64,000 nt of DNA from Candidatus Gastranaerophilales bacterium. GTDB taxonomy: Bacteria; Cyanobacteriota; Vampirovibrionia; Gastranaerophilales; Gastranaerophilaceae. The DNA lies in contig CALUVI010000002.1 in NCBI GenBank assembly GCA_944324185.1, positions 1 to 64,000 on the forward strand. Reading direction: 5' to 3'. Made by a program: the position numbers and the translations under genes. Under the pieces are notes generated by a model. It was given only the letters and a program-made list of their open reading frames with translations. It had not been told where the DNA came from and searched no databases. Shown piece by piece: positions 9,085 to 62,700 of this stretch (the stretch's first letter is position 1; each line of letters starts with the position of its first letter).

Positions 9085-9129
9085 TTTTGAATTCTTTTAT
9101 GAACTTTTGTAACAATTTTTAGAATTTGT

Positions 9130-9156
9130 TAAAGTTTAAAAAAAAAATGCCGTTAT
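9130..9156 (+). promoter_or_regulatory. Sigma-28 (FliA)-type promoter
   Basis: TAAAGTTT (9130-9137), an 11-nt spacer (ten A and one T) and GCCGTTAT (9149-9156). The flagellar sigma-28 consensus is TAAAGTTT-N11-GCCGATAA, so this matches 14 of 16 positions with exact spacing. Transcription would begin near 9164, about 46 nt before the ATG of the 1033-aa protein. A near-identical copy is at 47567-47593 on the minus strand. Confidence 0.75.
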
Positions 9157-9209
9157 ATAATATATATAATTTAAATAATAATGAGATTTTATATCGAAAG
9201 GAGATTTCC

Positions 9210-12200
9210 ATGAGCCTGGGTATTAATCCAAATGATGCGTTAGAACAAGCAAAAGCAAGGCAGGAAGCTGCTCAAAGAGCTAAAGAAAAAGCTGAAGCCG
9301 CAAAAAATGCAGCAGCTGCTAAAGATGCAGAGGCTGCGGCTGCAGCGGAAAAAGAAGCCGCCGAAGCCGATGCGGCAGCAGTAAACGCTGAAAAAGAGGC
9401 TGCTGATGTTACAGTTGCGCAGGAAAAGGTAAATGCTGCCAATGTTCGTGTTAACACTGCCCAATCTGCATATACAAACGCTTGTTCACAATTAAGCTCT
9501 GCACAGAATCAATTGTCAGCCGCAAAGGCGAGCGGAGATGAAAATGCAATAGCTGCGGCAGAATCAGCAGTAGCAAATGCCCAATCGGCTGCAGACAGAG
9601 CTTATGCAGAATTACAGGCTGCACAACAGGAAGCAAATAATGCTCAAGCCGAATTGGAAAGAGAAACCCGGGAAGCAACTGATGCTCAGGCAAAAGCTGA
9701 AACGGAACGCGCTGAGGCAGAACAGGCACAACAAGCTTCAGAAACTGCAAAGACTGAACTTGCGGACGCTGAGACTGCTTTAACTGCTGCCAATCAGGAA
9801 CTTGAAGCTGCTAATGCCGCTTTACAGGAAGCTGAAGAAGCAGCTGCCGCTGCAGAGACTGAAGAGACATCTGAAACTGACGAAACTCAAGAAACTGATG
9901 AAACAGAAGGGGTGCAGGAATCAGAGCATCTGTCTCAGGAAGAAATTGACAGATTGGTTCAGGAAGAAGGATATACTTATATTACTTCTAAGGAACAATT
10001 CCTGGAAATCTTCCAGAATGGAGGAATTGACTTAAACGGTAACTATATTTTAGGATGTGATATCGATTTAAGTGATGTTGAAAACTGGGATCCTGTTGGT
10101 GATGAGGATAATCCATTCACAGGTGTATTTAACGGAAACGGATATTCAATCGACAATTTGACAATAACTGTTGATGATGCAAATGCTGAAAATGTCGGTT
10201 TCTTCGGTGTAACTGAAAATGCGACAATTACAAATGTTGATTTTACTAATGCATCTGTTATAACTCCTGATGATTTTATTAACGGTTCATCTGCAGTAGG
10301 TATTGTTGCTGGTACCGCTAGAGGTACCACTTTCGATAACATTACTGTATCAGGTGACGTTACCGGTTATGAAAGTGTCGGCGGTTTAGTTGGCGTTATT
10401 AATGATAATTCTTATTTTGATGAGAATGGTAATAAAGTAGAAGTCGGCAATAGTTCAATATCAAATGTTCATACCGCAGTAAACGCTAATGGTAAATACT
10501 TTGTCGGCGGCTTAGCAGGATATGTTGCTGATACATCTACTAATGAAGGTGTAGCAACAAGAGATTTGAAAATTTCCAATTGCAGCACAAGCGGTGAAAT
10601 TGTATTTGAAGAGGAAGCTGCAGGCGGTTTAATCGGTGAAGCTGGTAAGACAATTATTACTATTACAAATTGCGAAAGTAATGTAAATATAACCTGGGAT
10701 AATGCTGAAAACGACGGCGATTTATCATTCCTTATGGAAACAGGAAGAGCCGGCGGATTCATAGGATGTGCAAACGGTACTTATATAGCAATTTGTAACT
10801 CTGAATACAAAGGTAATCTGGATGTTGACGGCGATTTTAAAGGCGAATGGTACGGATGGTACATGAATGATGCTCACGTTACTATTTATGAACTTCCGGG
10901 CGGATTACCTGTTGATGATATTTTGAATATTGACGGTATTGATGCACTGACTCCGGTAACGGATCCGCAAACAGGTATTTCTCATTATGAAGTAACCGTA
11001 AGTACTCTAACGGGCTTAGATAAAATGGTTACTATGATTCAGGAAAACCCTGCACTTGCAGATATGATAACCTTCAATGTAAACTTCGACTTTGAAGCAA
11101 TGGATGGTATGTATGATCCGTCAATTTATGAACAATACGGTATTGTACAGCATTTATATGAAGATGAAGAAGGAAATGTCCATAACGATGTTTATATTGA
11201 TAATGAAATAGATCTTGAAACAACCTTCCATCAAGGTGAAATGAGTGAATTACCGCCTTGTGAAGTCCAACAGTGTGATGGAATAATTCTTGAAGAAACA
11301 ATGGTTTCAGGCTTGTACAAAGATCCTGATGGTAATTATGTTGTTATAACTGATGAAGGACTTAAAAATGTTGATATGGAATTCCATTATGACAACCAGA
11401 TTACTGATGTTACAAAACGTTTGGAATCCGATGAAGTAAGATATCGTGAATATATTACCTCAATGGTTCAGTATTATCAGAATAAAATGTATGATGCACT
11501 GAAAGCCTTGTTTAATATTGGTGAAGACGAACAATTACCGGTAATAAATAAAGCTGAATACAAGAAACTGCAGAAGATGCAGGAAGCAGGCATGGAATTG
11601 ACCGATGAACAGAAACTTGCGATGGCTGTTTATGAAGTTGATTATACAGTAATGAATATGGTTTCTGATACAACTCACAACTATGGCTGCGGTATGGGCG
11701 GAAATGCTTCATTCCTTGATGAATCAAAAGCTATTCAAATGTACGATGATGCAGGCAGACCACTGTTTACAACTTTAAATGGCGATCAACTCCGTCAGAG
11801 AATGGATGCTGAAGGTAATCTTATGACAGATGATGAAGGTAATCCGATCTATGAAAACCTTGATGGCAGTGATTATACGGGACTGGCAGAAGTGTTTGCA
11901 CAACGCGGTTATCCTGTAACAGATGAAAACGGAAACTTCCTGTTCACTGATAAAGACGGTAATACTGTTACAAAATCAGTTGATGAAGAAGGAAACACTG
12001 TTTATACAAATGCTGACGGTTCTGTATTTGAAGGAACGGAAGAAGATTTAAAACAGCAGTTGACACCTTATGATAATTCTTCTGAATATTCAGATCTTGA
12101 AAACGATATGAAAGACTTGTTAAGCGATGTCGAAAACGGTAATTATCCGCTTGGCAGAACTTCAACACCAAATGAAGAAGGAACCGGCTCTGCAGCTGAT

Positions 12201-12311
12201 GGTGAACAGACAGAAACTCCGGCTGAAGGCGCTGCGGCAGCACCTCAAGGAGCACCGGCTGCAGAAGCTGAAACTCCAACCCCGGAAGAAATAGAAGACG
12301 AAATCTTATAA
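9210..12311 (+). CDS. Large Sec-less coiled-coil / GLUG-repeat protein
   Basis: 1033 residues starting at the ATG that follows CGAAAGGAG. Residues about 9-215 are an extremely Ala/Glu-rich coiled coil, followed by a Thr/Glu linker (216-234). From about 255 to 580 there is a beta-helix-like region with several GLUG-type motifs (GGLVG, GGLAG, GGLIG, GGFIG) and an opening (NGNYILGCDIDLS ... FTGVFNGNGYSI) known from surface adhesins. Later there are Asp/Asn-Gly loops (DENGNFLFTDKDGN) and an acidic Pro-rich C-terminus. No Sec signal, lipobox or membrane segment is present, although GLUG proteins are normally extracellular. The sigma-28-type promoter and the nearby flagellar export genes suggest export through the flagellar type III route. 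This is inference. Confidence 0.7.
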   Translation: MSLGINPNDALEQAKARQEAAQRAKEKAEAAKNAAAAKDAEAAAAAEKEAAEADAAAVNAEKEAADVTVAQEKVNAANVRVNTAQSAYTNACSQLSSAQNQLSAAKASGDENAIAAAESAVANAQSAADRAYAELQAAQQEANNAQAELERETREATDAQAKAETERAEAEQAQQASETAKTELADAETALTAANQELEAANAALQEAEEAAAAAETEETSETDETQETDETEGVQESEHLSQEEIDRLVQEEGYTYITSKEQFLEIFQNGGIDLNGNYILGCDIDLSDVENWDPVGDEDNPFTGVFNGNGYSIDNLTITVDDANAENVGFFGVTENATITNVDFTNASVITPDDFINGSSAVGIVAGTARGTTFDNITVSGDVTGYESVGGLVGVINDNSYFDENGNKVEVGNSSISNVHTAVNANGKYFVGGLAGYVADTSTNEGVATRDLKISNCSTSGEIVFEEEAAGGLIGEAGKTIITITNCESNVNITWDNAENDGDLSFLMETGRAGGFIGCANGTYIAICNSEYKGNLDVDGDFKGEWYGWYMNDAHVTIYELPGGLPVDDILNIDGIDALTPVTDPQTGISHYEVTVSTLTGLDKMVTMIQENPALADMITFNVNFDFEAMDGMYDPSIYEQYGIVQHLYEDEEGNVHNDVYIDNEIDLETTFHQGEMSELPPCEVQQCDGIILEETMVSGLYKDPDGNYVVITDEGLKNVDMEFHYDNQITDVTKRLESDEVRYREYITSMVQYYQNKMYDALKALFNIGEDEQLPVINKAEYKKLQKMQEAGMELTDEQKLAMAVYEVDYTVMNMVSDTTHNYGCGMGGNASFLDESKAIQMYDDAGRPLFTTLNGDQLRQRMDAEGNLMTDDEGNPIYENLDGSDYTGLAEVFAQRGYPVTDENGNFLFTDKDGNTVTKSVDEEGNTVYTNADGSVFEGTEEDLKQQLTPYDNSSEYSDLENDMKDLLSDVENGNYPLGRTSTPNEEGTGSAADGEQTETPAEGAAAAPQGAPAAEAETPTPEEIEDEIL

Positions 12312-12316
12312 GCATA

Positions 12317-12344
12317 ATGCCCTCCCTGTTAAGGGAGGGCATTT
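12317..12344 (+). terminator. Intrinsic terminator
   Basis: An 11-bp GC-rich stem (ATGCCCTCCCT / AGGGAGGGCAT) with a GTTA loop is followed by TT. It lies 6 bp after the stop codon of the 1033-aa gene. Confidence 0.75.
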
Positions 12345-17698: not shown

Positions 17699-19111
17699 TT
17701 ATCTGAAAATATGAGGATATGTGTCTGCTAAATATTCTGCAAAAACATTACTGCAGCGTTCTTGTGCATATATCAAAGCTTCTTTTATATGCTTGTTATT
17801 TAATATCAGAGGAGATGATAGGTATTTATCCAGCAGAGGAAGTTTGGTTTCGTCTTCACTGCGGATAATCTTAATAAGCTCACTTGCATCAAAGTGTATG
17901 TAATTTACAAGGTTTTTGAAATTTTTATCATTTATGTTTTTGTACACATACTCAAGCTCCGGTGAATATTTTATATCTCGATCTTTTATAACATCAAGAA
18001 GTTCATAGTTTTCGGCATTCATAATTTTTTCTATTACTGAAATATCAAAGCGGTCTTTTTTGTTATAATCTATATACGGAAGTTGTTTTAGTAAATCAAT
18101 CATCTTATTGTATTTTTCTCTGTTTTCTTCTGTCGGAACAATGTTTGCAATTGAATTTACTATATCATCGTTAAAATTAATTATGCTTCCATATGAGCTT
18201 TTAACTGCCGGACTGTCGAGAAACTCTGTTATTTCATCAATATCGCAGTAATTATTTAATTTAGGAGTTTTTAAAAGCGGACCGAATATTTTTCGAACAA
18301 GTTCCGATTTTATGCTTTCGTCAGAGTAAGCCATTCTGAATTCATTTTTTATAGGCTGAGTATAAAATACATTATGCATGCCGGAATACTGTTTTTTATC
18401 AAGCGTGTCTTTTAAGGTATTTATATAATTTTCCAATTCCGCACTAAATTTATTATTTTCAAGCTTTTCAGCATTATCGGCAACAAAACTGTATAAGAAG
18501 TATAGAATCTCATCTGCAAGAGCATATTTTGCTTCCGGTCTTACATTCTTGCTATTTAGTGAAGCCATTATATCAGGAAGTGCTGATAGGTCAAAGTTTT
18601 CCAGATTATGCGTCAGAATGGGCATACCGTTGGCATTGTCTCTTACGTAGAGATTTAAAAGGTATTCTTGCATATCATTATCAATAAAGGTTTTTCTTAT
18701 TGCTTCTGCTTCTTTTTTTGAAGCTTGCCATAAAGGTGGATTTGAGTTATATTGCTCAAGAATAAATTCTTCTAACTCTTTGTGAGTAAGCTTTGAATGT
18801 TTTGTACTGTTACCGGTAGTGGCTTCACTAGAAAATTCTCCAGAGATATTTTCTTTTGAAGACGAATTTGTAACCTGTTTTTCATCCAGTTTTTCATCTG
18901 TTCTGTTTATACCATCAGCATTATCATAGGTAAAGTAATTCTTCATGGCAAATCCGGCTGTTATTCCGCTGATTATTGAAGAGCTGTTTTGTATAATTTT
19001 TCCTATTTTTTTAGTGTCACCTTTGGAGCCAAAATTAGGTAAAATGTGGGTTTTGATACTTTTATTCCGATTATTGTTTATATTGAATTGCGTAACGGAT
19101 GTAATTTTCAT
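17699..19111 (-). CDS. Unknown Sec-less protein, paralogue of the next gene
   Basis: 470 residues. There is no signal peptide. The N-terminus (MKITSVTQFNINNN, then LPNFGSKG) shares a MKI ... N ... FG/FRG pattern with the genes at 19111 and 39896. A helical module at about 115-230 (NPPLWQASKKEAEAIRKTF, then LENFDLSALPDIMASL) is also found twice in the neighbour. The C-terminal part (PYIDYNKKDRFDISVIEKIM, YELLDVIKDRDIKYSPELEY) has an ankyrin-like helix-turn-helix rhythm. The ATG at 19111, behind AAAGGAG, overlaps the upstream stop (ATGA), so both are cotranslated. Placement between flhB and flhA suggests a link to export, possibly as a substrate. The function is unknown. Confidence 0.6.
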   Translation of the reverse strand: MKITSVTQFNINNNRNKSIKTHILPNFGSKGDTKKIGKIIQNSSSIISGITAGFAMKNYFTYDNADGINRTDEKLDEKQVTNSSSKENISGEFSSEATTGNSTKHSKLTHKELEEFILEQYNSNPPLWQASKKEAEAIRKTFIDNDMQEYLLNLYVRDNANGMPILTHNLENFDLSALPDIMASLNSKNVRPEAKYALADEILYFLYSFVADNAEKLENNKFSAELENYINTLKDTLDKKQYSGMHNVFYTQPIKNEFRMAYSDESIKSELVRKIFGPLLKTPKLNNYCDIDEITEFLDSPAVKSSYGSIINFNDDIVNSIANIVPTEENREKYNKMIDLLKQLPYIDYNKKDRFDISVIEKIMNAENYELLDVIKDRDIKYSPELEYVYKNINDKNFKNLVNYIHFDASELIKIIRSEDETKLPLLDKYLSSPLILNNKHIKEALIYAQERCSNVFAEYLADTYPHIFR

Positions 19112-20904
19112 CAATTTCTCCTTTCCAGAGTAACTTTATTGTTTTGTATTAAAGGTGAGGATAAGTGCCGCTCCAGCTCCGGAGATTTTTTACGTAACAA
19201 TTTTCGTAATTCCTCTATGTCAAACTCTACATTATCGATTGCTTCCTTAAACTTTTCATCCTGAATGTTTTCATAAACATAATCTAATTCAGGTAAATAT
19301 TGTATATTATGTTCTTTGACAACATTTAAAAGTTCAAGGTTCTCAGAGTTCATTATTTTTTCTATTATTGAAATTCCGTATTTATCTTTTTGATTGTAAT
19401 TAATATCAGGTAGATTTTTCAATAATTCAAGCATTTCATTATATTTATTGCTGTCGACATCTGTAGGAAGAATATCTGGTATTGAATTTAAAATATTGTC
19501 ATAATAGTTTAAAACTCTGCCCTTTGATTCAATAACATCATCCGATTTAAGACAGCTTATAATACTATCAATATTGCGGTATTCCATGTTTTCCGGAAAT
19601 TGATATATTTTGCCAAATATTTTTTTTACAATATCTGCTTTAATATTACCTTCAGGTGTAATCTTTTTGAGTATTAAGTATTTGTATACAGATTGTTTCT
19701 GGTTAATAAGATGGTCGCTGCAAGGGCGCGTATTCGGTTTTAATGCCAAATATTCATCAATATTTTGTCTCAAAATGTCAGCATAATTTCCAAGTTCTTC
19801 TGTAAATTTGTCATTTTGTAATTTATATCTGTTGTTGTAAATGTAATCATAAATTATACAAAGTACCGTATCTGAAAAAATATATTTGTCTTTTTCATTC
19901 AGTACGCCGCTATTTATAATGTCAATAATATCCGGCATTGCAGATAAATCTCTGTTTTCAAGGTTATTTTCCAAAACATTGCTTATCCTTGGCTCGTTGT
20001 TATCTCTAAGGTACAAATCAAGAACATATCCTGGTTTGCCATTATCTTTGAACACTTTTCTTATAATCTTTGCTTCATCAGGTGTTGCATTCCATACTGG
20101 AGGATTTACCGAACGATAGGGAATAAAATATTGTTCATCAAGAAATCTTTCAAAATTTCTTGCATTCATCTTGTAATTTGTATCGTTTTTATCTGCAATA
20201 AAAACATCAGACCTGTTAAGCACCAGTGTATTTTCAAATGTAGATTTTACAAGATCAGATTTAATATTTTTATCTGCTAAATTCCTCTTGTAATACTTTG
20301 TCATAAGCATAAGTTCATTATCGGATACACTCTCATTAATGCTGTCTTTTACATCTTCAAACGCAGCATTTTTCTTTTCTTTTACATATTCAATTATCTG
20401 TCCGAGTTCATCCGTAAACTCATCATTTTCAAGTTTTTCGGCATTCACGTATAAAAAGCGGTAAATTACCTGCAGCATGTCATCATAGTGACCGAACTTG
20501 AATTTTTTATTTTTTTCACTTTCACATCCGACAAGTATATCAGGTACTGCTGATAAGTCCTTATTCTCAAGGTCATTGAACAGTCTTCCGTCACGGAGAC
20601 CCAGATACAAAACCGGAATTTCAGAGGCTTTATCGTTGGAAATAAAAGTCTCACGAATCTTTTGAGCTTCTTCTTTTGAAGCATAATAAATACGCGGAAA
20701 ATGAACCGGTGACCAGGCTTGCTGCTCTAAAAAAGCACTTAGTTTTTTATCGTCCATCTTCAAGGTTTCATTAACCTGACTTGCGGCGGATGCAATGCTT
20801 GCAGCAGTTAGAACTGCTAATTTTTTGCTTTTATTAAGACCTCGAAAGCTGCTGTAATTTTTTCTGATTCCCGTATTATAAGGGTTTGCAGATAATATTT
20901 TCAC
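19111..20904 (-). CDS. Unknown Sec-less protein with two copies of a helical module
   Basis: 597 residues starting with GTG (GAGG 6 nt upstream). The N-terminus is MKILSANPYNTGIRKNYSSFRG, a likely sorting signal shared with two other proteins in the window. Module 1 (about 51-205; YYASKEEAQKIRETF ... LENKDLSAVPDIL) and module 2 (about 254-420; NPPVWNATPDEAKIIRKVF ... LENRDLSAMPDIIDII) are internal duplicates; the downstream paralogue has one. The C-terminus (DINYNQKDKYGISIIEKIM, LELLNVVKEHNIQYLPELDY) is also shared. There is no membrane segment. It may be an effector or scaffold, but no named family was recognised. Confidence 0.6.
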   Translation of the reverse strand: MKILSANPYNTGIRKNYSSFRGLNKSKKLAVLTAASIASAASQVNETLKMDDKKLSAFLEQQAWSPVHFPRIYYASKEEAQKIRETFISNDKASEIPVLYLGLRDGRLFNDLENKDLSAVPDILVGCESEKNKKFKFGHYDDMLQVIYRFLYVNAEKLENDEFTDELGQIIEYVKEKKNAAFEDVKDSINESVSDNELMLMTKYYKRNLADKNIKSDLVKSTFENTLVLNRSDVFIADKNDTNYKMNARNFERFLDEQYFIPYRSVNPPVWNATPDEAKIIRKVFKDNGKPGYVLDLYLRDNNEPRISNVLENNLENRDLSAMPDIIDIINSGVLNEKDKYIFSDTVLCIIYDYIYNNRYKLQNDKFTEELGNYADILRQNIDEYLALKPNTRPCSDHLINQKQSVYKYLILKKITPEGNIKADIVKKIFGKIYQFPENMEYRNIDSIISCLKSDDVIESKGRVLNYYDNILNSIPDILPTDVDSNKYNEMLELLKNLPDINYNQKDKYGISIIEKIMNSENLELLNVVKEHNIQYLPELDYVYENIQDEKFKEAIDNVEFDIEELRKLLRKKSPELERHLSSPLIQNNKVTLERRN

Positions 20905-32691: not shown

Positions 32692-35600
32692 CTAATTTAA
32701 TCTTTGCAGCAGTCCGAGAACACTTTCCGTTTTTAGGTTTCGTGAAGTTGACATCAAAGTTGCAGAAGCTTCCTGCAGAATCCGATATTTAATAAAATTC
32801 GACGATTCCTCAGCAACATCGGTATCTCTCAGAGTCGAACGCGTTGAAATCAGATTATTAATCTTTAAGATTTGCGCCTCAAGCACGCTGTCTAACCTGT
32901 TTATCGTTGTCCCGATATTCAAAAGCTGGTCTTGAACATCATTAAGCAGTTTATCAATATCTTCCAAACTCTCCAATGCGCCTTCTTGTGAAGAAAAGTC
33001 CACACTAAAATCAAACAAATTGAAACTAATTTCCGTTGAAATAAATTTATCTACGCCGGAGCCTATATCAACCTTAATATTAACTTCAAACGGTCTCGGG
33101 GTAATGTCTACGACGTTACTGTAAATTGTATTCACACCGTTATTTATCATTGTGTTGCGTTCGCCCGCTTCGCCGTCAACGGTGTTATTGTTACCTGAAG
33201 AGATCATAAACGCATCGCTTGAACCTCCGCCGTTTGCAGTGTTGTTATCTCCGTTAATGCTGATATCATCAATATCGGAGCCGCCCTGAATCGTATTACC
33301 ATCTCCGCGAATGGTAAACTCGTTTTCTCCGGCAGTTGATTCTATGTTGTTTCCGTCTCCGCGGACGTCGAATTCATCATCTCCCGAGCCGGTCAAAAGT
33401 TCGTTATTATCTCCTTTTACTGTAATATCCTTGTCTCCGAGGGTTGTCGTGTAATTGTTTCTGTTGCCTTCAATTACAACATCATTTTCCCCGCGGGTGT
33501 TTGTTAATGTGTTTTCGTTTCCGTAAATATTAATTGTGCCCGAAGCGTTTTGGGCGGTTAAATTGTTGTTATTGCCTTGAATCCCGATAATATTAGCGCC
33601 GCTTCCTGCTGTAATTGTGTTTGAAGAAGAGCTTACGACAAAGCGGTTGGCTCCATCACCCGCGTTAACTGTATTTGAGTCGGCATTGATTGTAATTGTG
33701 TTGTTTCCGTCGCCTGCGGTAATGTTGTTCTGCGCGCCTTCTACTACGATTTTGTTATTCCCCGCGCCGGCGTCGATGTTCGTATTATTATCAGAGTTCA
33801 CGTTAATCGTGTCGCCGCCGGCGCCACCTGTTACAGCTAGATTTGTGGATTCATTAAGAGTTATTGTATCGTCTCCGTCATCGCCGTTTAAAGAGTTGTC
33901 GGCACTGTCCATTATTAAAGTGTCATTGCCGGAAAGTCCGTTAATTATGTTATTTGAGCCCTGTTCGATTGTTATGCGGTCGGCGAGATTACTGCCGTTC
34001 ACAACATTGTTATCGCCGCGGATATTGAGAATTGCGTTTTCGTTTGAAGCGGCATTTATCTCAAAGTTTGAGCCGTTGAGGGTAATAACTCCTGTATTAG
34101 GATTCAAAGAATACTGGAGCATGTTTGAACCCGAGAGGTTGTTAGTAACGGTGTAGGTTTTGCCGTTCAGGGTAAAGGTTTGGGTTTCTCCCTGATATGT
34201 AAAAGAGATTCCGCCGGCGTTCGGGTCGCGGCTTACGTTGGATACAGAGCTTCCGGAGCCGTTTATGATGTAGTAGTTATCTCCGGTTCCGCCATCTATC
34301 ATGTTGTTGTCGCCGTCTACAACAAAATAATCATCACCCCCGCCGCCAAGGATAGTGTTATTACTGCCGGTGGCGTAAAATGTGTCATTGCCGGAGCCGC
34401 CGGAGATGCTGGCACCATCAGTATTAATATTGTAGATATTATCCCCGCCGTCGTCAGAAAGATTCGTGACTGATGCATTTATATTGTAGGTATCGTTGCC
34501 TAAACCACCGTTAATTACCCCACTTGATGTTGCATTTACTGTAATTATATCAGCGCCATCATCGCCATACACACTACCATTTGCATTAATAATAATTTCA
34601 TCGTCACCATCACCGCCATAACCAATAGAAGCCGTATTAACCAATGTTATTTTGTCATTTCCGCCTTGACCATAAATCTTAGCGCCATATCCATAGCACC
34701 AAATATTGTCCTCAAGATTACCGCCATAAAAAGTAGTACTCGTTCCATAAACTTTAACATTATGTTTTACATCAGTCTGCCCTGTGATAGCTGCATAATA
34801 ACCTGCAAATGTAATTTCATCTGTTACTGCGTTATATGAATATAGCATTTTTGAATTACGTAAAGTATCTGTGCTCTTAACTGTATAACTAATTCCATTA
34901 ATAGTATCATTTGATTCTAGAACCTGTGCATTATCAGAATCACCAAAACCGCAGATAAAATTATCTTTGCCGGAATTTGATAGAATTTTATTTGTACCGG
35001 ATTTTGCATAGACACTATTTTGAGAACCAGATATAGTTACATTAGTTTGTCCGGTTCCTGCTTCTGCATAACTATAGCTTCCTGTAAAAGTAATATTATC
35101 GACCCCGCTCCCTCCATAATAGAAACTAAAGTTTCCTATGTTAATTTCGTTGTCTCCGGCACCGCCATAACATATTCCTTGCGACTGTAAAGTTACCTTA
35201 TTGCTGCCATTTCCACAATAAACAATATTGTTATAAGTTTTAGCTAATATTGTGTCACCTTGATTGCCTCCATAAAAAGTTATATTGTTGGAGGCAAGTG
35301 CTACATTATGTTTTTTATCTAATGCACCTTTTATAGCAATTTCAGCACCATTTGAAGTTGTAAATATTATTTGACCGGTATCATCTATTTTATAAATTAA
35401 AGTTTGTGCACTATTACCATTGGTAACAATATAATCAATCCCGTTAATATTTAATGTTTTTGTTTCATTTTTTACAAAATCTACAGAACCGGCATTAGCT
35501 TTATCCACATTTACAAGAGTCATTGAAGAGTCAATATTACCATTAATAATATTTGTACCGGAATTTCCATTTATATCTAAGTTTTTTAAATTTTCTTTTA

Positions 35601-36783
35601 AATAGAAGGTGTCATCACCATCACCACCTTTTATCTTTGCATTAGAAGAAAAATTTATATTAAAAATATCATTTCCATTACCGCCATCTACTGTCTGTCC
35701 ATAGACATTCACATTAAGAACATCATCGCCATCTCCGCCATATATTGAATTAATTCCACTACCTTGTAACGTTAAAATATCATTACCAGCTTCACCATAA
35801 CCAAATGAATGATCTCCGTTTATTGTAATTTTATCATTACCATCACCGCCATACAAATAATTGAATGGTCCTGACATTTCTGTTAAAATATCGTCCTTAG
35901 AGCCGCCATAAAAAGATGTATAAGTTCCATTTATAACAATATTGTGCGCAACATCATCCTGACCTCTAATCTCAAAGTTTGAGGCTAATAGAGTTAATTC
36001 TCCCGTTAATGTATCTTTAGAATAAGATAAGTCGTTTGCTGTAGTTAGCTTATTTCTAACAGTATACTGAACTCCATCAATTGTGATGGTTTTAGTCTCA
36101 TTGGCTCCAAAGGATTCAGCACCCTCGATGTCTGCTGCCTGTGGAGACGGGGTGTTGTTTGATTGTGTGGTTGAGATTTGACTTGTGGTTGAAGGCGCCG
36201 CAGGCGCCTTACCTGCGGTCAAAGAAAAAGCCGATGCGGAGGCAGTCGTTTTACCCACGCCGGCAGGATATATATCATATGTTGTATTATTTACTTTTGC
36301 TGCTTTTGTAAGACGATTTATAGCTTTTGTTGATATTGAAGCCGCTCCAGTGTTTTTATCTGCCGGCTTTGAATACAAATTTAAACCGTTATACTCCATC
36401 GTCTCACGGAGCTGAGCAATCTGTTCGATTATTTCATCCGCTTCTGATTGCATGGCATCACGTGATTCAGCGCCATAATTGCCGTTAGATGCCTGAGTTG
36501 CAAGCGCTCTCAATCTTTGCAATAATTCTTCTATCTCCTCAAGACCGCCCTGCGCTGTCTGCAGTAAAGCCAGCCCGTCGCCGGCATTTTGTTGTACCTG
36601 CAGCATTGAAGAGATTTCTTTGTTTAAGTCAGTTATTATGGAATAATTCGCAGCGTTATCTTTTGCGTGGTTGACTTTAAATCCCGTTGTCATCCGCTCT
36701 ATGGAGCTATTTAAGCCGATAGTGTTATCATAAAGTGTACGCTGGAGGATTAAATCCGCAACATCAGTTCCGAAGGTAATCAT
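32692..36783 (-). CDS. Giant modular flagellin-like protein with beta-roll arrays
   Basis: 1363 residues. The ends are flagellin: residues 1-140 (SSIERMTTGFKVNHAKDNAA, LLQTAQGGLEEIEELLQRL) and 1265-1363 (INRLDSVLEAQI, RSTLRDTDVAEESSNF, SVLGLLQRL) form D0/D1. In place of D2/D3 it carries four units, each a roughly 65-residue header (228-293, 438-503, 624-687, 866-930; e.g. INGIDYIVTNG ... FYGGN) followed by a beta-roll array with GGxGxD or GDxNxI repeats (to 430, 620, 848 and 1225). It should form the filament or a minor, very thick filament; the Asp/Asn-rich loops suggest calcium binding. An AAAGGAGGTGGC ribosome site precedes the ATG. No sigma-28 promoter was found within 1 kb, where a repeat mosaic lies instead. 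Confidence 0.85.
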   Translation of the reverse strand: MITFGTDVADLILQRTLYDNTIGLNSSIERMTTGFKVNHAKDNAANYSIITDLNKEISSMLQVQQNAGDGLALLQTAQGGLEEIEELLQRLRALATQASNGNYGAESRDAMQSEADEIIEQIAQLRETMEYNGLNLYSKPADKNTGAASISTKAINRLTKAAKVNNTTYDIYPAGVGKTTASASAFSLTAGKAPAAPSTTSQISTTQSNNTPSPQAADIEGAESFGANETKTITIDGVQYTVRNKLTTANDLSYSKDTLTGELTLLASNFEIRGQDDVAHNIVINGTYTSFYGGSKDDILTEMSGPFNYLYGGDGNDKITINGDHSFGYGEAGNDILTLQGSGINSIYGGDGDDVLNVNVYGQTVDGGNGNDIFNINFSSNAKIKGGDGDDTFYLKENLKNLDINGNSGTNIINGNIDSSMTLVNVDKANAGSVDFVKNETKTLNINGIDYIVTNGNSAQTLIYKIDDTGQIIFTTSNGAEIAIKGALDKKHNVALASNNITFYGGNQGDTILAKTYNNIVYCGNGSNKVTLQSQGICYGGAGDNEINIGNFSFYYGGSGVDNITFTGSYSYAEAGTGQTNVTISGSQNSVYAKSGTNKILSNSGKDNFICGFGDSDNAQVLESNDTINGISYTVKSTDTLRNSKMLYSYNAVTDEITFAGYYAAITGQTDVKHNVKVYGTSTTFYGGNLEDNIWCYGYGAKIYGQGGNDKITLVNTASIGYGGDGDDEIIINANGSVYGDDGADIITVNATSSGVINGGLGNDTYNINASVTNLSDDGGDNIYNINTDGASISGGSGNDTFYATGSNNTILGGGGDDYFVVDGDNNMIDGGTGDNYYIINGSGSSVSNVSRDPNAGGISFTYQGETQTFTLNGKTYTVTNNLSGSNMLQYSLNPNTGVITLNGSNFEINAASNENAILNIRGDNNVVNGSNLADRITIEQGSNNIINGLSGNDTLIMDSADNSLNGDDGDDTITLNESTNLAVTGGAGGDTINVNSDNNTNIDAGAGNNKIVVEGAQNNITAGDGNNTITINADSNTVNAGDGANRFVVSSSSNTITAGSGANIIGIQGNNNNLTAQNASGTINIYGNENTLTNTRGENDVVIEGNRNNYTTTLGDKDITVKGDNNELLTGSGDDEFDVRGDGNNIESTAGENEFTIRGDGNTIQGGSDIDDISINGDNNTANGGGSSDAFMISSGNNNTVDGEAGERNTMINNGVNTIYSNVVDITPRPFEVNIKVDIGSGVDKFISTEISFNLFDFSVDFSSQEGALESLEDIDKLLNDVQDQLLNIGTTINRLDSVLEAQILKINNLISTRSTLRDTDVAEESSNFIKYRILQEASATLMSTSRNLKTESVLGLLQRLN

Positions 36784-37764: not shown

Positions 37765-37942
37765 GAAGGGAAAGGCGGCTCATTGGTGTGCTTTGAACAC
37801 ATGAATATTCTAAAATTTTTCCTTTTAGAAATCCTTATCAACAACATGATATGACATATCCTTATATCCATTATATATTATATATTCCACATGTTCATAA
37901 GGTTATAACACTTTTTTTTATTAATTTTACAAATATTTACAT

Positions 37943-44506: not shown

Positions 44507-45310
44507 TTACTGAGTACATATAGGTTTTTTATTTACATTATAAAAAATTTTGGAATGAGTCATGAAGCTTTCTGGATTTGCGCTTACATAAAAAGTTTCC
44601 TGTCCTCCCGAGCTATTTAAAAGACAACTCTTTTCCAAATCTGTTTTTATATAATTAACAAATATTTCCGCAGGATCAATAAACAATTCTTTTGGTGCAA
44701 ATTCTTTCAATAATGACAAGAGGTACGGGTAATGTGTGCAGCCCAGAATAATTTTTTCCGGCGAAAATTTTTCCATCTTATCTAACTGTTTTTTCACATC
44801 TTCAATTGATGAAGCGTCTTTATATCTGCTGTTTTCTACAATAGGGACCCAGTTAGGACAAGGAATTTCAAGAACTTTCAAGTTTTTATTGTATTTTTGA
44901 AGCTCTCTTGTGTAAACTCCTGATTTTACTGTTGCAGCAGTTGCAAATACTCCTATTTTACCGTAATCCATAGATGCGATAATTTTTGCGCAAGACTGAA
45001 TAATCGGATAAATATTAAACTCATAATCGTTTTTCACTTCATCATACGCCTGTGCAGAAGATGTATTACAGGCTATAACCACCGCTTTTACATCTTTTTC
45101 TTTGTAAAAATCAAGGATTTTTCTTGCAAAGCCGATTAGCTCTTCCTTTGTTTTATTTCCGTAAGGCATATTGGCTAAATCGCCATAGTAAAGCGTATTC
45201 TCATAAGGTAACAGTTTCCGAAATCTTGCGTAGACAGAAAGCCCCCCGACTCCCGAATCAAAGAACCCTACCGGCTTTTTACTTAGATTGTTGTGATTTA
45301 ATGTACTCAA
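44507..45310 (-). CDS. murI: Glutamate racemase
   Basis: 267 residues. The two catalytic cysteines are in VVIACNTSSA and LGCTHYPYL; VGFFDSGVGGLSV and YYGDLANMPYGNKT are the family N-terminal motifs. It supplies D-glutamate for peptidoglycan. The start is a TTG at 45310 (GAGGG 5 nt upstream), because no ATG precedes the first motif. It lies 32 bp inside the 3' end of the upstream amidase gene, so the two cell-wall genes are coupled. Confidence 0.93.
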   Translation of the reverse strand: MSTLNHNNLSKKPVGFFDSGVGGLSVYARFRKLLPYENTLYYGDLANMPYGNKTKEELIGFARKILDFYKEKDVKAVVIACNTSSAQAYDEVKNDYEFNIYPIIQSCAKIIASMDYGKIGVFATAATVKSGVYTRELQKYNKNLKVLEIPCPNWVPIVENSRYKDASSIEDVKKQLDKMEKFSPEKIILGCTHYPYLLSLLKEFAPKELFIDPAEIFVNYIKTDLEKSCLLNSSGGQETFYVSANPESFMTHSKIFYNVNKKPICTQ

Positions 45311-47192
45311 TTATACCCTCAGCTATGGCTTTTGCCGTCTTTTTCTTTCTTGAATCCGTTACCAGCTCAGAACGCTCTTCGTTATTTGAAAGAAATCCTG
45401 TTTCAACTAAAATAGCCGGAACCGTTGTATGATTTATAACATAAAACTTAGATTTAACCAATCCTCTGTCTTTTGTATCTATTTCTTTCATCAAGTGTCT
45501 GTGAATAATATTAGCAAGTTCTTTACTTGTGTCATGATAATAATGAGTCTCTATGCCCTTAGGTTCTGTTGAAACTGCAGAATTTACATGAATACTTACA
45601 AATATCTCAGGAGTTTCATTTTCAGAAAATTCCACTCTGTCCTGTAACGATACATAAGTATCATCAGAACGTGTAAGAGCAACTTTATATCCTTTAGACT
45701 TAAGTATTGAAGCGATTCTCTGTGTAATTTCAAGAGTTATATCCTTTTCATTAACCCCGTCCCTTATAGCGCCGTAATCACTGCCTCCGTGTCCTGCATC
45801 AAGTACAACTTTGCCTTTTATCATTGTTTTTTTTGCAGATATGACAGGTGTTTCGTCTGATTTAGTTTCAATAACTCTTTTTATAGTAAGTCGTATTGCT
45901 TTGCCGTCAATACTCTGGTCAATTTTCACTATATCATCTTTATTAATCCCCATAGTGGCTCTAATACCTGTTTGCGGGAGTAAAGACATTGTAAGTTCTT
46001 TATAATAAGTATTTTTAAATGTTTTAATTAAATCCAGCTCATTATAGCTTTTGACATTAAAAAAATACAAACTTAAAGAATTGTCACTGCGTAAAACAGA
46101 ATGCACTACAGGCTCTGTGAACGATAAAATAAGCTCGCTCGTGCGGTTATCAATTTTTCTTACATAAGCTTTTGCTAAATTAGAAACACTGTTTACAAGT
46201 TCCGTATGTTTTAACTTATCCGCATTTATAAATAAAAGTGATTGTGCATCGGCTGAAAACACCGGAATATATTTTTCAGCATTGTCGGTTGTTACTACTA
46301 ATCTTGCCTTATTATACTCAAACTGTCCGATTCTTGCTGTATCTTTACATGAACCGTCAGGGCAAATATTAATTTCTTTATTTCTAATATTCTTGTCTAC
46401 AAAAGTGTTTGGGAAATCTATTACGATACGTTTCGGCTGGTCAAGGCAAAACATTTTAGATGCTGTAATTTGCCCTGAACCGTTTACCAGAAGCCCGCCG
46501 TTTTTAATATAATAACCGTTTATATAATATTTTGTCCTGAGTTTTAAATCTGATGATAAATCAACAGACACGACTGAATCATAAGATTTTCCGTCCGAGT
46601 TGCTTAATATGGAATTCTCAAATGCCTGTTGAATATCTGCAACCACACTATCCGGCGCTTTTACCGGTGAACTCTGCGGAATTGTCACTTTTTGTATAAC
46701 CTGAGAGTTTACCGAAACACTTGAATACGGTAAATTTTGCGAGGATTCATCATATATAGGGTTAAAATAATCATTATTCAATGACATAACCGAACACTGT
46801 ATTAAAATATTCCCGTTAATATTTATAAGCTTTACTTTTGATGTATCAAAGCCTTCTTCAAACGTTACAACACCTCTTACAACATCAGGCTCTGTTGTAA
46901 ACTGCGAAAGCCTTATTTCCTTAATCTCTGACTTGCTAAATACAAGCTGCTGTTTATCACCGATTAAAATGGCATTTTCTATATCAAAATAAATTCTGTT
47001 AGGGTTTTCTAATTTAGAGAACTTTAAATTTTTTGTTAAACCTTCAGGAGATTCAAGTATATTCAGGAAAATAACAGAAGACGAGTCGTCATAATGCATA
47101 GACATGACTTTTGAAGGTTCTGCGTTCACACAGGCAAACCATTGGAAAATAAACATTATAAATATTGTTATAAAAAAGAGTACTCGCTTCAT
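45279..47192 (-). CDS. amiC: N-acetylmuramoyl-L-alanine amidase with AMIN domains
   Basis: 637 residues from the ATG at 47192, which begins a signal peptide (MKRVLFFITIFIMFIFQWFACVNA). Two AMIN-like beta domains fill the N-terminal half (FSKLENPNRIYFDIENA and CLDQPKRIVIDFPNTFVD mark them). The C-terminal Amidase_3 domain (about 450-635) has the zinc ligands in LDAGHGGSDYGA, NEKDITLE and SIHVNS and the catalytic Glu in LVETGFLSN. It cleaves peptidoglycan stem peptides during division; AMIN domains target it to envelope sites. It precedes and overlaps murI. Confidence 0.92.
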   Translation of the reverse strand: MKRVLFFITIFIMFIFQWFACVNAEPSKVMSMHYDDSSSVIFLNILESPEGLTKNLKFSKLENPNRIYFDIENAILIGDKQQLVFSKSEIKEIRLSQFTTEPDVVRGVVTFEEGFDTSKVKLININGNILIQCSVMSLNNDYFNPIYDESSQNLPYSSVSVNSQVIQKVTIPQSSPVKAPDSVVADIQQAFENSILSNSDGKSYDSVVSVDLSSDLKLRTKYYINGYYIKNGGLLVNGSGQITASKMFCLDQPKRIVIDFPNTFVDKNIRNKEINICPDGSCKDTARIGQFEYNKARLVVTTDNAEKYIPVFSADAQSLLFINADKLKHTELVNSVSNLAKAYVRKIDNRTSELILSFTEPVVHSVLRSDNSLSLYFFNVKSYNELDLIKTFKNTYYKELTMSLLPQTGIRATMGINKDDIVKIDQSIDGKAIRLTIKRVIETKSDETPVISAKKTMIKGKVVLDAGHGGSDYGAIRDGVNEKDITLEITQRIASILKSKGYKVALTRSDDTYVSLQDRVEFSENETPEIFVSIHVNSAVSTEPKGIETHYYHDTSKELANIIHRHLMKEIDTKDRGLVKSKFYVINHTTVPAILVETGFLSNNEERSELVTDSRKKKTAKAIAEGIIEYIKSQQSK

Positions 47193-47294
47193 TATTAAAC
47201 AGGCTTCCGCCCCCAAATCATAACAAGATTTTAGCAAATCCGGCGGTAAATGTAAAGTCAGAGGGAATTTTTCTAAAATACATTTACTCTTCGC

Positions 47295-47328
47295 AAAAAC
47301 AAAAGCTTGCAACTATTAATTGCAAGCT
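47295..47328 (-). terminator. Intrinsic terminator of the 42-aa gene
   Basis: A 9-bp stem (AGCTTGCAA / TTGCAAGCT, 7-nt loop), followed on the minus strand by TTTTGTTTTT. It lies 42 bp after the stop codon at 47370 and isolates the small gene from the amidase downstream. Confidence 0.75.
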
Positions 47329-47369: not shown

Positions 47370-47498
47370 TTAACAATGTAATTTACTGTCAATTTCATAA
47401 ATTTTTAATACCAGAGAATTTAACCAATCTTTTAACATTAATGCCAAAATTTTTATTTCATCTCTGAAACTGTAACATCCGGGCCACATTGCGTACAT
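47370..47498 (-). CDS. 42-aa protein under a sigma-28-type promoter
   Basis: A short frame with full expression signals: a sigma-28-type promoter (47567-47593), the ribosome site CGAAAGGAG (identical to that of the 1033-aa gene) 8 nt before ATG, and a terminator (47295-47328). The product begins MYAMWPGCYSFRDEIKILAL and continues as one amphipathic helix (MLKDWLNSLVLKIYEI), ending SKLHC. It has no signal peptide. No family was recognised. Late flagellar genes of this size include anti-sigma factors and export chaperones, but 42 residues is shorter than FlgM; a small regulator or structural peptide is equally possible. Confidence 0.65.
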   Translation of the reverse strand: MYAMWPGCYSFRDEIKILALMLKDWLNSLVLKIYEIDSKLHC

Positions 47499-47566: not shown

Positions 47567-47593
47567 ATAACGGCATTTTTTTTTAAAACTTTA
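47567..47593 (-). promoter_or_regulatory. Sigma-28 (FliA)-type promoter
   Basis: On the minus strand: TAAAGTTT, an 11-nt spacer (T, nine A, T) and GCCGTTAT. The -35 and -10 boxes are identical to those at 9130-9156, and the spacer is also an A-tract. Transcription would start near 47560, giving a leader of about 62 nt for the 42-aa gene. Confidence 0.75.
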
Positions 47594-47606: not shown

Positions 47607-47645
47607 AATTGTTACAAATATTTACATTATGAACTTTTGTAACAA
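47607..47645. promoter_or_regulatory. Paired TTGTTACAAA / TTTTGTAACAA boxes between divergent promoters
   Basis: Two inversely oriented boxes (47609-47618 and 47635-47645) lie between the sigma-28-type promoter and the TACTTT-class promoter. The right-hand part (TGAACTTTTGTAACA) is identical over 15 bases to 9100-9114, at the equivalent place between the other divergent promoter pair. Confidence 0.5.
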
Positions 47646-56771: not shown

Positions 56772-59700
56772 ATGGCAGATATAAATAATTTTACGGAGAT
56801 TGCAGAGAACTTTGATACTATTAAAACCTTGCTTAATTCAATAAGAGCACAGGGTATACTTAATACATCCGATGTAGATAAACTTTTAGCCGGCATTAAT
56901 GCTAAGCTGGAAAAGTTGAATACCGAGGAGGATATTGATTTAATTAAAATCTTCCTGTCGGATTTAAAGAAGAATTTAGAAGAGCGTCATAGTGTTCTGC
57001 TCTCAAAATTTGGCGCAATAGAATCTCTTTTCTCCAATCTGTTGAAAAATAGTTCTGAAACATTAAAATCAAGTGAAGTAAAAGAACTGTTTGATATTGT
57101 TGCTACAAATCTTTCGGTATTTTCAAGAGAAGTTGTTTCCCAGAAAGAAACTCTTTCCGATATAACCATGCGCTTAGATGCTATGCGTTCGGATGATTCG
57201 CAGAAAAAAGAAATCGTTAAAAATATTTCTTTCTTAAAAAATGATCTCGAAAGGCTTACTAACGGGTTTGATTCAATTGTACTAAGCTTAAATGAAAACT
57301 TTAAAAACGTAATAAAATCGATATCAGGCATTGATCCGTCTGAACTCGTAATTAAGTTCGGAAAAGAGCTTGAAGATATAAATAATTCTTCTAATACTAT
57401 ATTGTCAGCTATTCAGCTTCTGGATAAAAAAAATGAACGTATAGAAGAAGTGATGAAAGGACTGGCAACTCAGGAGGATTTAAACAGCACTAAAAAGTGG
57501 ATAAGTGATTTAGCTGCTCAAGAGCAGTTACTATCTCAGTCAGTGGATAATTTATCGGATAAATACTATAAAATAGACAATCTTGCGGAAAAAATCGATG
57601 CATCGGTAGAAATTATCGCAGGTTTAAAGACAATAATTTCTGATAAAGATGAGCAGAGTGCAAGTGCTGTAATTGACAGGTTATGTCAGCTAGAAGAACT
57701 TATAAAAAATGTTTCTTCTGATACTGAGTTTAATGACTTTAAACATTCCTTAGAGCAAGCTCTAAATGATATTTTTGAAGCGTCAGCAGTATTGAAGAGC
57801 GCTTTTGATGCTTCAAATAATGAATTAAAGGAAATAAAAACTTCGATTCAAACCTTAGATATAAATGTTAATTTCAAAAGTCTTGCTGCTGATTTAAGTA
57901 AATCAGAGCAGAGTGTAAAAGAGCATGTAAGTGTTGAAGGTGATAAAATAATCCAACTGGTTGATGTTAATGCAACCAGAACTCTGAATGAGCTTTCAAA
58001 CAATGCTGAAAATCTCTCAGAAAAATTGTCTGAGGCACAGACTCTTATATCCGGGCTGTGTGAAAAAAGTTTTTCGGAGCTTCAGGAAAATCTGACCGGT
58101 TTAAAGAGTATTGTTTCGCAGATTGATGAAAACAATGTTTCTGCAAATAATGCAATATTCTCAAATATAACTGACAGACTTGCTCTTTTTGAGAGCAGTT
58201 TAAAAAACTCTCTTGAAAAACAGGAGGATTATGTTGCAAATTCATCAAGCCTGCTCATTGAGCAAATTAACAATATAAAAGATTTATCAGGAGTTCTTGA
58301 TTATAAACTGGATTCTTCTGTTATAGAAATTAATAACTCAAAAACCGAATTGGAAGGGCTGAAGAAATCTGTAGAAGAGATGCTTGCTCTTGATTTTGTA
58401 AATAAGGTAAATGATTTTAAAGTAGACTTATATGCTGTAAAACAGGAGCTGACAGCACATTTTGAAACTACATCCAATGAATTTAGTGAAAAATATTCAA
58501 ATGATTTATTCAGTAAATATGAACTTTTAATAAGTAAATTAGATATTGTTGAAGATGAGATAAAGCAGGCTCAGACAGATACTTTAACATCTTTAAAAAG
58601 TATACTCGATAATGTTTCATCTTCTCTTGTGGATATATTGTCTTATGTAAGCTCTCCAAAAGATATAAACACGGATAATATAGAAGCAAAACTGGATAAT
58701 ATCGCAAGAACTGTAAGTGACAACAGTCTGAGTTATATAGATAATGTCAAAGATACAGTGGATATTATAAGGACTCAGGTTGATAATAATATCAAAAGTT
58801 TACAGGAAGATACTTACAAACAGTTGCAGTTTATCAGTTCTTCTATAGAAACATCAAGCGAAGTTATAAGAGATGATATTAAAAATTCTTATAATAAGCT
58901 GCTTGAGGTTCAAGATAGGTTTGAAGAGATAAAAGAGACTATAAAACTCAATAATAACTCTCTTTCAACTAATATACACGGTGTTGTGGAAACAGCAATT
59001 ACGTTGAAAGATGATTTCGATACCAGACTTTCATCTCTTAAGAATGCAATTTTAGACAAAGTAGCAGATTTTCAGAAGGAGTTTACGTGTGAAAATGCTG
59101 ATAAAATTAGTGAAATAAAATTTGCTTCTGAATCATTACATGCGAAGCAGATTCAAAATACACAGGAGATAAAAGATGAACTAAGGGGCGAAATTGCACG
59201 TATTACTGGTTCTCTCAAATTGTGTATAGAAGAGCTCGCAGAACAGCTTTCAGGTACTTCAGCCAAAGTGGACAGTGTTAATCATGATATAGTAAATCTT
59301 GTTAAAAATGATTTCGGTTCGCAGGTTGAATTGTCTGTAGAAAATGTGAATACAAGTCTGCATGAATTTTCTGATGCGGTAGGGGAAAAGTTAGATGAAA
59401 CTGTTTCTAAAATTAATGATTTAGGCGATACGGTTAATGCTCTTTCCAACAATACAACAACGGCATTAACTTCTACTCTTGCTAAAATTTTAGATAATTT
59501 CGTGTCATTAAAAGCTCTTATGGGTAATTTTAATGATAAGACAGCGGAAGATTTGCAAAAATCGGCTGAAACGATAATTGGAGAGTTTACAAAACTAAGA
59601 GATAAAATAGAAGTAGTTGATACGACTATTGATGAAGATCTTACACGTCAGTTGTCTATTTTGGAATCTAATTTTGAAGCATTAAACCATAATTTGGCGA

Positions 59701-62700
59701 ATTTCTTTACACAGTCTAATGATGCAATAGGCAGCAGTATCAATACAGGTCTCGTTAATGTTTCCGAAGCCTTAAGAGTCACAGTGGTTAAAGGTCTGGA
59801 ACAGTACAAAAATCAAATAGATGAACTTTTTAACAGTATTTCTGATGAAAACGGCAAACATATAAAATTAGTTGAAGCAAAAGTTATTGAATTAAATGAT
59901 ATTCTGCAAAAAACAATGAATGAACAGAATATTAAAGCTGCTGGTACTTTATCGGAGATGACTGAAAGTTTAAAAGATATAATATCTCAAAATATAGAAA
60001 CCGCTGCTGCTGATTATAATGCCTTGAAGGACAATCTGGATAATTTTGCTAAATATATTGAAACACAAAATGTAACAACAGCAGAACAGCTCAAGTTTAA
60101 ATTGAGTGATATTGCAAAATTAATTGATTCAGGTGTAAATGCGCAGACTCAGGAGATAACTAAAAGGTTTAATGAGCTGATTCTTGAAGTTTCGGAAATT
60201 TCCGGTTCTACAAGCGGTTTGAATAATGAAATAACAAACAGAGTATCCGTTATTTCAGATGAGATTAATTTATTAAAAACAAATCTTACCGAGTTTTTCA
60301 CCGGCAGCTCAGCACAGGTTTTAAACAAATTAGATACAATTTCCGGTGAAATGTCAGATGAATGCAGCAACCTTTTAGGTTCTATCGTAAAAACAGTTAC
60401 TGATTTACAGGATAAAATTAATACATTATTTGAACAAAATTCTTTGAATCTGATAACGCAGTTTAGTAATACAGGTTCAAAATATATTGAAGAATTAAAT
60501 TTAAAAGCTCTGGAATTAAAAACAGCTTTTGAATCTTTGAATGACAGATTAGATAAAGATGAAATTTCAAGAATGAATGTATTTCAATCTCAATTAAATG
60601 AATTGAGTAATTCATTCAATGTATTGATAGAAGAAGCTAAGAATGTTACAAAAACGGAAGTGTCATCAATATCAGAGACGCTTATTAACAGCAGCAGAGA
60701 AGCTATGTTTGATGTTGAACAGGCAATCGAAGATAAAGTAAACTCAATACTGGCAACAAGTGCTGATATTGCAGCCGGTGAGCTTCAATCTATGGAAGCG
60801 TTTGCAAATAAAATCCTAAATGCTGTTAAAACATCACAGGAAATTACAAATAACTGCAAGGATTTTATTGCTGATTTCATAAGAGCAGAATTAGAGACAA
60901 TATCTGATAATATTGAAAAAGAAACGGATGTTCTGGTAAAAGATTTATTGGAACAAATGAGTCTGTTAAAAGATTTTCAACGTGATGAGATTAGCAAACT
61001 AACAACTCAGCTTGAAGGTGTGGTTGAGGATTGTATTTATAATAATGTCAATGAGCTTAAATCATATATAGATGTAAAGAGTGATACATCAATACTTAAC
61101 GGTAAACTGGACAGCATAAGTTCTGACTTGAGTAAAACAGCCGAGGACATGCTTGCTGCATCTAATAAATTGTTAACAGCAAGTGTTTTTGAGAATACTA
61201 TTTCCGATATGAAATCTGCTAATAATCTGCTCATTTCATCAATGGCAGATAATTTGAACTCACAAATTCAAACTTTCGTAAAAAACAGCTTACAAAAAGA
61301 TATTGACGATAAGTTTAATTTGTTTGATAAAAAGTTCGTAGATACTGTTGTAGATAAGTACGAAGAAATAAAAGTGATTTCATCCGCGTATAATAACGCT
61401 TTTGAAACTATACAAGCATCAGTAGAAGGTTTATTGTCAAAATTTACGGAATCAAAAGAAGAAATCTACAAAACACTCCTTTCTGTTGTAAACGGGATAA
61501 GCGGTGAAGTCGATGAATTAAACCTTAGTTTTGCAGATTTAAAAGCTCAAATGTTAAATAAATCTTTTGATGAAGCGTTTCAGGCATCAATTAACAAGCA
61601 AATCTCCAGCATTGAGAGCCTCGTTAATGAACAGCTCGGGTATATAGAAGATATTAGTGAACTTTGTTGCAGTAATCTTCCTGAACTGACAGAGATGAGT
61701 GCTCTGGTGAAATACAATGTAATCCAATCATTGACTGATTTGAATACGAGGTTGGATAATCAGGACATTTCAATACAAAAAGAGTTGACTTCACTGAAAA
61801 CTGATGTAATTACGCAGTTTTTGAATATATTTAATCAGATTTCTTTTGTTGCTGAGCAGGAAGAAATACTTGATTTCATACAGGAAAAACATTCTGAGTT
61901 AATTTCTGTTTTAAGTCATATTGTAACTGCAGCAGATGATATAGAAAATGTAAAAGACAATGTTGCGTTATTAGATTTAAAAGTGGATACTGTAAAGAGC
62001 GATATTGATCAGATAAATGAAAAAATTACGTCAATTATATCTTCAAACGGAGAAGTTGACTATGTCTACAGTTTACAAGATCTGGAGTCAGATATTGCAA
62101 ATTTAAGATTGACTTTAAATGAATTAAAAGATAATAATAATTCAAAAGAACTTGAAGAGCTTATAACTTCTACCAATAATATTTATTCACTGGTAGAGTC
62201 TTTGAAAAACGAACTGCCGAAATTTGATAGTGAAGAATTCAAGAAAGATTTCGAAGCTCTAAATGAAGATATAGTAAGCATAAGCACCCGAACCAACAAA
62301 CTTATCCTTGCTTCAGATGAATCATATAAAACTTTGCAGGAAAATCTGCAGGACTTCAAGCTTGTAATTAATGATTTGGATGAAAGAACCCGTAATTTTG
62401 CCCGTGAAGCCGGTATTGACAGAATTGATAATAAACTCGGTGTAATAAATTCTATGATACAAAACGGAGCTAGAACAAATCAGGTGTTCAATCAGGTATT
62501 TGAATATCTTGCAGAATGGGTAGATAATGCAGGTGCACAGATTGCGGCTATATCTGATAAGGTTGAGACACTGGATGATATAGGTCAAATTAAAGTAATG
62601 CTGGAAGATTTAAAAGCAGAGGCAGAAGATGATTCTGACAGCACAGAATTGATTGAGGCTTTAAGTAATGTTTTTGAAAAACAGGCAAAGAAAATAAGTT

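Follow-up and report, generated by a model that had tools for sequence, protein, structure and literature searches.

The gene for a 1033-residue protein without a Sec signal, in a Candidatus Gastranaerophilales genome of 1.97 Mb, is preceded by a composite element made of a sigma-28 (FliA) type promoter core and a tandem TGTAA box resembling the cyanobacterial HLR1 motif. About two dozen genes of this genome carry the element. Our best explanation, with a probability of roughly 0.6 for all its parts taken jointly, is that the core is a genuine FliA promoter, that these genes form one regulon kept through the genus and controlled by FliA together with an HLR1/RpaB-type regulator, and that the 1033-residue protein would be exported via the flagellum. 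Against it count the imperfect upstream half of the box at this gene, the presence of three further OmpR-family regulators, the lack of a FlgM match, flagellin genes devoid of the promoter, and genus genomes with composite sites but no match to FliA or to RpaB. Below, the window means the whole stretch of DNA analyzed (64,000 nucleotides).

Promoter core and gene layout

Positions 9130-9156 of the forward strand read TAAAGTTTAAAAAAAAAATGCCGTTAT, that is TAAAGTTT-N11-GCCGTTAT. The predicted -35 element TAAAGTTT (9130..9137) agrees with the sigma-28 consensus at 8 of 8 positions, and the predicted -10 element GCCGTTAT (9149..9156) agrees with that of E. coli at 6 of 8. Thus, 14 of the 16 positions match TAAAGTTT-n11-GCCGATAA, the E. 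coli sigma-28 consensus as printed in PMC2859248, and the spacer is exactly 11 nt, as an earlier note on this DNA had pointed out in calling the site a near-perfect match. The two deviations from GCCGATAA (A to T, positions 5 and 8) recur elsewhere in the genome. The genome encodes FliA (TIGR02479, 230 bits against a cut-off of 189.6), whose presence the same note had named as a check. Although FliA is present, the anti-sigma factor FlgM has no match to its Pfam model in this genome; FlgM is very small, and a missed Pfam match is no proof of its absence.

From the geometry of sigma-28 promoters, transcription is predicted to start within 9160..9166 (+). A ribosome-binding site, GAAAGGAG (9196..9203, +), and the ATG at 9210 follow, the core lying 53 nt from the ATG of the 1033-codon frame (9210..12311, +). 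A longer, TTG-started reading of 1061 residues begins at 9126, upstream of the promoter, so that this form is not expected from the same transcript. Directly 3' of the stop codon, an intrinsic-terminator-like hairpin, GCCCTCCCTGTTAAGGGAGGGC, can be read in the sequence (12319..12342, +), and the gene is probably monocistronic. Downstream of it, within the window, are located fliP, fliR, flhB and flhA. The export-gate cluster also contains, between flhB and flhA, two opposite-strand genes (17699-20904, -) without Pfam match.

The 1033-residue protein and its proposed export

Searches of Pfam, NCBIfam and PHROGs gave no functional assignment for the protein. In its structural model (mean pLDDT 79), residues 7-214 form a helical hairpin and residues from about 255 to 560 a parallel beta-helix of the GLUG type; the C-terminal part has a mixed region and DEEGN-type repeats, acidic and disordered. 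The earlier note had called it a GLUG protein. Pfam finds no Glug domain in it, but its beta-helix is homologous to the GLUG-bearing domain of flagellins: aligned over 358 columns, this part shares 31% identity with the center of a flagellin from the same genome. Moreover, all seven ORFs with this beta-helix domain that were tested, six from relatives and one from this genome, have Flagellin_N, Flagellin_C and Glug matches (one Glug match being below cut-off). In flagellins, then, this domain is exported by the flagellar apparatus. The 1033-residue protein itself has no Pfam match to Flagellin_N or Flagellin_C, which rules it out as a flagellin; only the central GLUG-type domain is common to both.

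Used alone, Foldseek returned coiled coils only, with E > 0.01. VIA-align superposed the beta-helix on its counterpart in M26 IgA1 proteases with Z scores of 23-30, as for 3n6z (Z 30, 258 residues, 2.7 A); for tailspikes and lyases, Z is about 13. An M26 protease identity was rejected, since the HExxH zinc-protease motif is absent from the protein and no M26 Pfam match was obtained. Compared with the M26 IgA1-protease beta-helix and GLUG domains, the particularity of this lineage is that the domain also occurs inside flagellins. Elsewhere in the window, 56772-62999 (+) encodes a 2075-residue protein with an apolipoprotein-like helical repeat, scoring below the Pfam cut-off.

The statement that the protein has no Sec signal is borne out by its N-terminus, where the maximum 12-residue hydropathy within residues 1-35 is -0.08; by the same measure, the orthologues reach at most 0.78. 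From this lack of a Sec signal, the beta-helix held in common with flagellins and the export genes downstream, we infer that the protein most likely leaves through the flagellar type III apparatus, a route that the flagellin-like beta-helix supports but does not prove. Once outside, it would act at or beyond the cell surface, in adhesion or glycan contact.

The same features can be read differently. The protein may be FliA-controlled but intracellular, a coiled-coil protein of cytoskeletal or scaffold-like type, its lack of a Sec signal then simply reflecting a cytoplasmic location. Its long coiled coil and acidic, disordered C-terminus would suit such a role, and some co-regulated products seem cytoplasmic, such as a GAF + HD-domain protein. 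However, the beta-helix resembles extracellular proteins, namely the M26 proteases, tailspikes and lyases, and has a homologue in the central domain of flagellins, themselves exported by the flagellar apparatus; LysM domains are also found in two co-regulated proteins. An intracellular role is a real possibility, but on the unlikely side.

The tandem box and its candidate regulator

The second half of the composite element, which the earlier note had missed, is a tandem TGTAA box upstream of the core, TTTATGAA-CT-TTTGTAAC (9096..9113, +), a putative site for an OmpR-family regulator such as RpaB. Its downstream half is exact and its upstream half has 2 mismatches; upstream of the closest relative of the gene (L040, protein 92% identical), both half-sites are exact. 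Alignment of 22 sites from this genome gives the repeat WWTGTAAM-NN-WWTGTAAM, ending about 16-18 nt before TAAAGTTT, with both TGTAA cores exact in 16 of them. At one site (L016), the box is moved 11 bp further upstream, and at an orthologue (L055), an exact copy lies 10-11 bp closer. Such shifts of about 11 bp are expected if a bound protein keeps the same face of the helix.

In cyanobacteria, the published HLR1 motif, KTTACAWW-N2-KTTACAWW, is bound by RpaB (PMC13421787; same consensus in PMC11633204) and activates when located at about -45 to -66 (PMC13421787). The TGTAA repeat is the reverse complement of HLR1 as usually written, and spans about -67 to -50 relative to the predicted start. 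The half-site (WWTGTAAM on the coding strand), the 10-bp repeat period and a location at which HLR1 activates all agree with the published motif, and an RpaB orthologue is present, as in the cyanobacterial HLR1/RpaB regulon. The targets, however, differ: photosynthesis genes in cyanobacteria, and in this gut lineage, which is not photosynthetic, FliA-type promoters in front of genes for Sec-less proteins. Across the genome, the HLR1 pattern occurs at 67 sites, against 7 for the reversed control.

The genome has one RpaB orthologue (NCBIfam equivalog NF045944, 355.2 bits against a cut-off of 330). Among 14 named control genomes, NF045944 has a match in Synechococcus elongatus only. RpaB is found across the class and is present in every genome of the genus with fewer than 100 contigs. 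Fourteen genus genomes that carry composite sites have no RpaB match; all have at least 110 contigs, so that assembly gaps are the likely reason, even though G011, which is among the fourteen, has a completeness rating of 99%.

The box would be the target of a response regulator of the OmpR family, for which RpaB of this genome is the likeliest candidate. This regulator would bind at about -67 to -50 and, whether RpaB or a relative, would aid FliA-RNA polymerase in starting transcription. It may be, alternatively, that the sigma-28 promoter is real but that the TGTAA repeats serve another OmpR-family regulator or act as an UP-element. OmpR-family boxes are generally direct repeats of about 10-11 bp, e.g. 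GTAAA-N5-GTAAA for CpxR, three OmpR-family regulators besides RpaB are encoded, and the repeats are A/T-rich. Nevertheless, the exact agreement of half-site, period and position with HLR1 argues for RpaB, as does the fact that, of the four regulators, RpaB alone exceeds its equivalog cut-off. An A/T-rich UP-element, for its part, would need no fixed WWTGTAAM word, and the reversed control is nine-fold rarer. We consider it unlikely that the box belongs to something other than RpaB.

Activator-dependent FliA promoters have a precedent in E. coli, where CRP activates the sigma-28 promoters of aer and trg (PMC2859248). There, as here, a FliA core is combined with an upstream activator site under strict helical placement. 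The CRP site is centered at -49.5 and concerns two genes, whereas the element described here has an OmpR-family repeat at about -67 to -50 and would serve a whole regulon.

Distribution, proposed regulon and implications

When up to 2 mismatches to the sigma-28 consensus are allowed, the window holds 2 sites against 0.06 expected from shuffled sequences, and none of 100 shuffles reaches 2. Relaxing the limit to 3 mismatches removes the significance of the window count, as 24 of 100 shuffled sequences reach 3. In the genome as a whole, TAAAGTTTN11GCCGWTAW occurs 14 times without mismatch, where a first-order Markov model predicts 0.013 occurrences (whole-genome expectation computed from the composition of the window), an excess over chance of about 1000-fold. 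Most sites with at most 1 mismatch lie 20-80 nt 5' of a ribosome-binding site and ATG. The earlier note had named a missing fliA and a chance-level motif frequency as grounds against its own reading; with fliA present and the motif far above chance, both fall away.

The core is also conserved. We found 18 orthologues of the 1033-residue protein within the genus, and although protein identity drops to about 45%, all 18 have the core 5' of the start, with 1-4 mismatches over 16 positions and 58-83 nt before the ATG. As a control, 170 nt upstream of each of 30 further genes in the window were compared with the core; the best matches there have 4-8 mismatches, with a single gene at 4 and none below. 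That the motif is a chance match, with another promoter driving the gene, would fit an A/T-rich window and the shuffles at 3 mismatches, but this very improbable reading was rejected in view of the genome-wide excess and the shuffles at 2 mismatches, and the core is kept 5' of all orthologues.

The composite pattern in its exact form occurs 15 times in this genome and is found in all 65 genus genomes searched, at 2-19 copies each (3-19 apart from two genomes with 2-3). Beyond the genus, it is present in 3 of 4 further genera belonging to the family and in another family of the order (f6); the remainder of the class gave no match at exact-pattern stringency. The reversed pattern gave zero matches in 115 genomes. 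Three genus genomes that carry composite sites have no FliA match over cut-off. Searched with a model built from composite promoter sequences, the genome gives 30 matches at E < 1e-5, including the sites on which the model rests. At least one of the weakest (C42) has no good core, and a weaker match (C13) lies in front of a gene whose product begins with a signal-like segment. Most genes downstream of the sites cannot be placed in a known family; EF-hand or LysM motifs occur in some. Among the 20 first genes examined, not one has a Sec-like N-terminus, their hydropathy peaks all being below 1.3, against 14 of 30 other window genes with a hydrophobic N-terminal segment (peaks above 1.6), a comparison that is indicative only because these 14 include membrane proteins.

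The window contains a second predicted sigma-28 promoter (47567..47593, -), accompanied at 47611-47627 by an exact HLR1-like box. About 68 nt downstream of this composite promoter begins a 42-codon ORF (MYAMWPGCYSFRDEIK..., 47370-47498, -), and no other gene lies before a terminator-like hairpin. The amidase gene beyond (45279-47312) was dropped as a target, because the ORF and the hairpin intervene. Short ORFs, of 51-57 codons, likewise follow other sites of the regulon.

Flagellin domains are present at ten loci of the genome, and in one flagellin of the window (32692-36783, -; 1363 residues) the terminal domains flank RTX-like and DUF3060 repeats. A composite-promoter core with at most 1 mismatch and in a plausible place is absent at all readable flagellin loci, L180 (sequence too short), L187 and L188 (starts not resolved) being set aside. 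At this pattern, flagellins were thus rejected as members of the regulon. The earlier note had suggested a surface protein expressed, and perhaps exported, with the flagellum. The presence of FliA and the conserved core favor this, but the flagellin genes have no such promoter; what is expressed with the flagellum may therefore belong to a FliA regulon of its own and not to that of the filament.

HLR1-like boxes also occur in two other settings. In a second class, the box is followed by GTTATAA and then ATGTGGAATTATA (window 37926-37942, -; L119, L134, L136, L197, L199, L200). This core looks like a sigma-70-like promoter with its -35 overlapping the box, and an HLR1 overlapping the -35 is in a repressing position in cyanobacteria. 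Three second-class sites, in the window and on C18 and C29, lie upstream of flagellin genes, with an HLR1-like box and a different core. In a third class (L137, L190, L191, L192, L194, L195, L198, L202, L205-L207), the box precedes GCAATTTTT and then about ACTTTATATATATAAG, possibly a promoter of another sigma factor.

For the 1033-residue protein, a close parallel is offered by the Feds (flagellar co-expressed determinants) of Campylobacter jejuni, non-flagellin genes behind sigma-28 promoters (PMC9856085), to which this non-flagellin gene with its predicted sigma-28 promoter can be likened. The same species uses its flagellar type III system to export Cia proteins, CiaI among them (PMC9856085). 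The Feds are four proteins, whereas the regulon proposed here has about two dozen genes, among which no family shared with the Feds was recognized, and its promoters carry an HLR1-like activator box, which is undescribed for Feds.

A literature search on sigma factors and promoters of Gastranaerophilales found nothing. The composite promoters suggest that RpaB, which in cyanobacteria is known as a regulator of photosynthesis and of the response to light, has a job outside photosynthesis and, more tentatively, that RpaB in Gastranaerophilales may activate a FliA regulon of Sec-less, flagellum-exported proteins. They provide a concrete list of targets and define, for uncultured gut bacteria, a genus-wide candidate set of flagellum-exported proteins, of which our literature searches found no account. 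If this reading is true, the HLR1-RpaB circuit would have a light-independent role, and a flagellum-exported secretome would exist in a common gut lineage.
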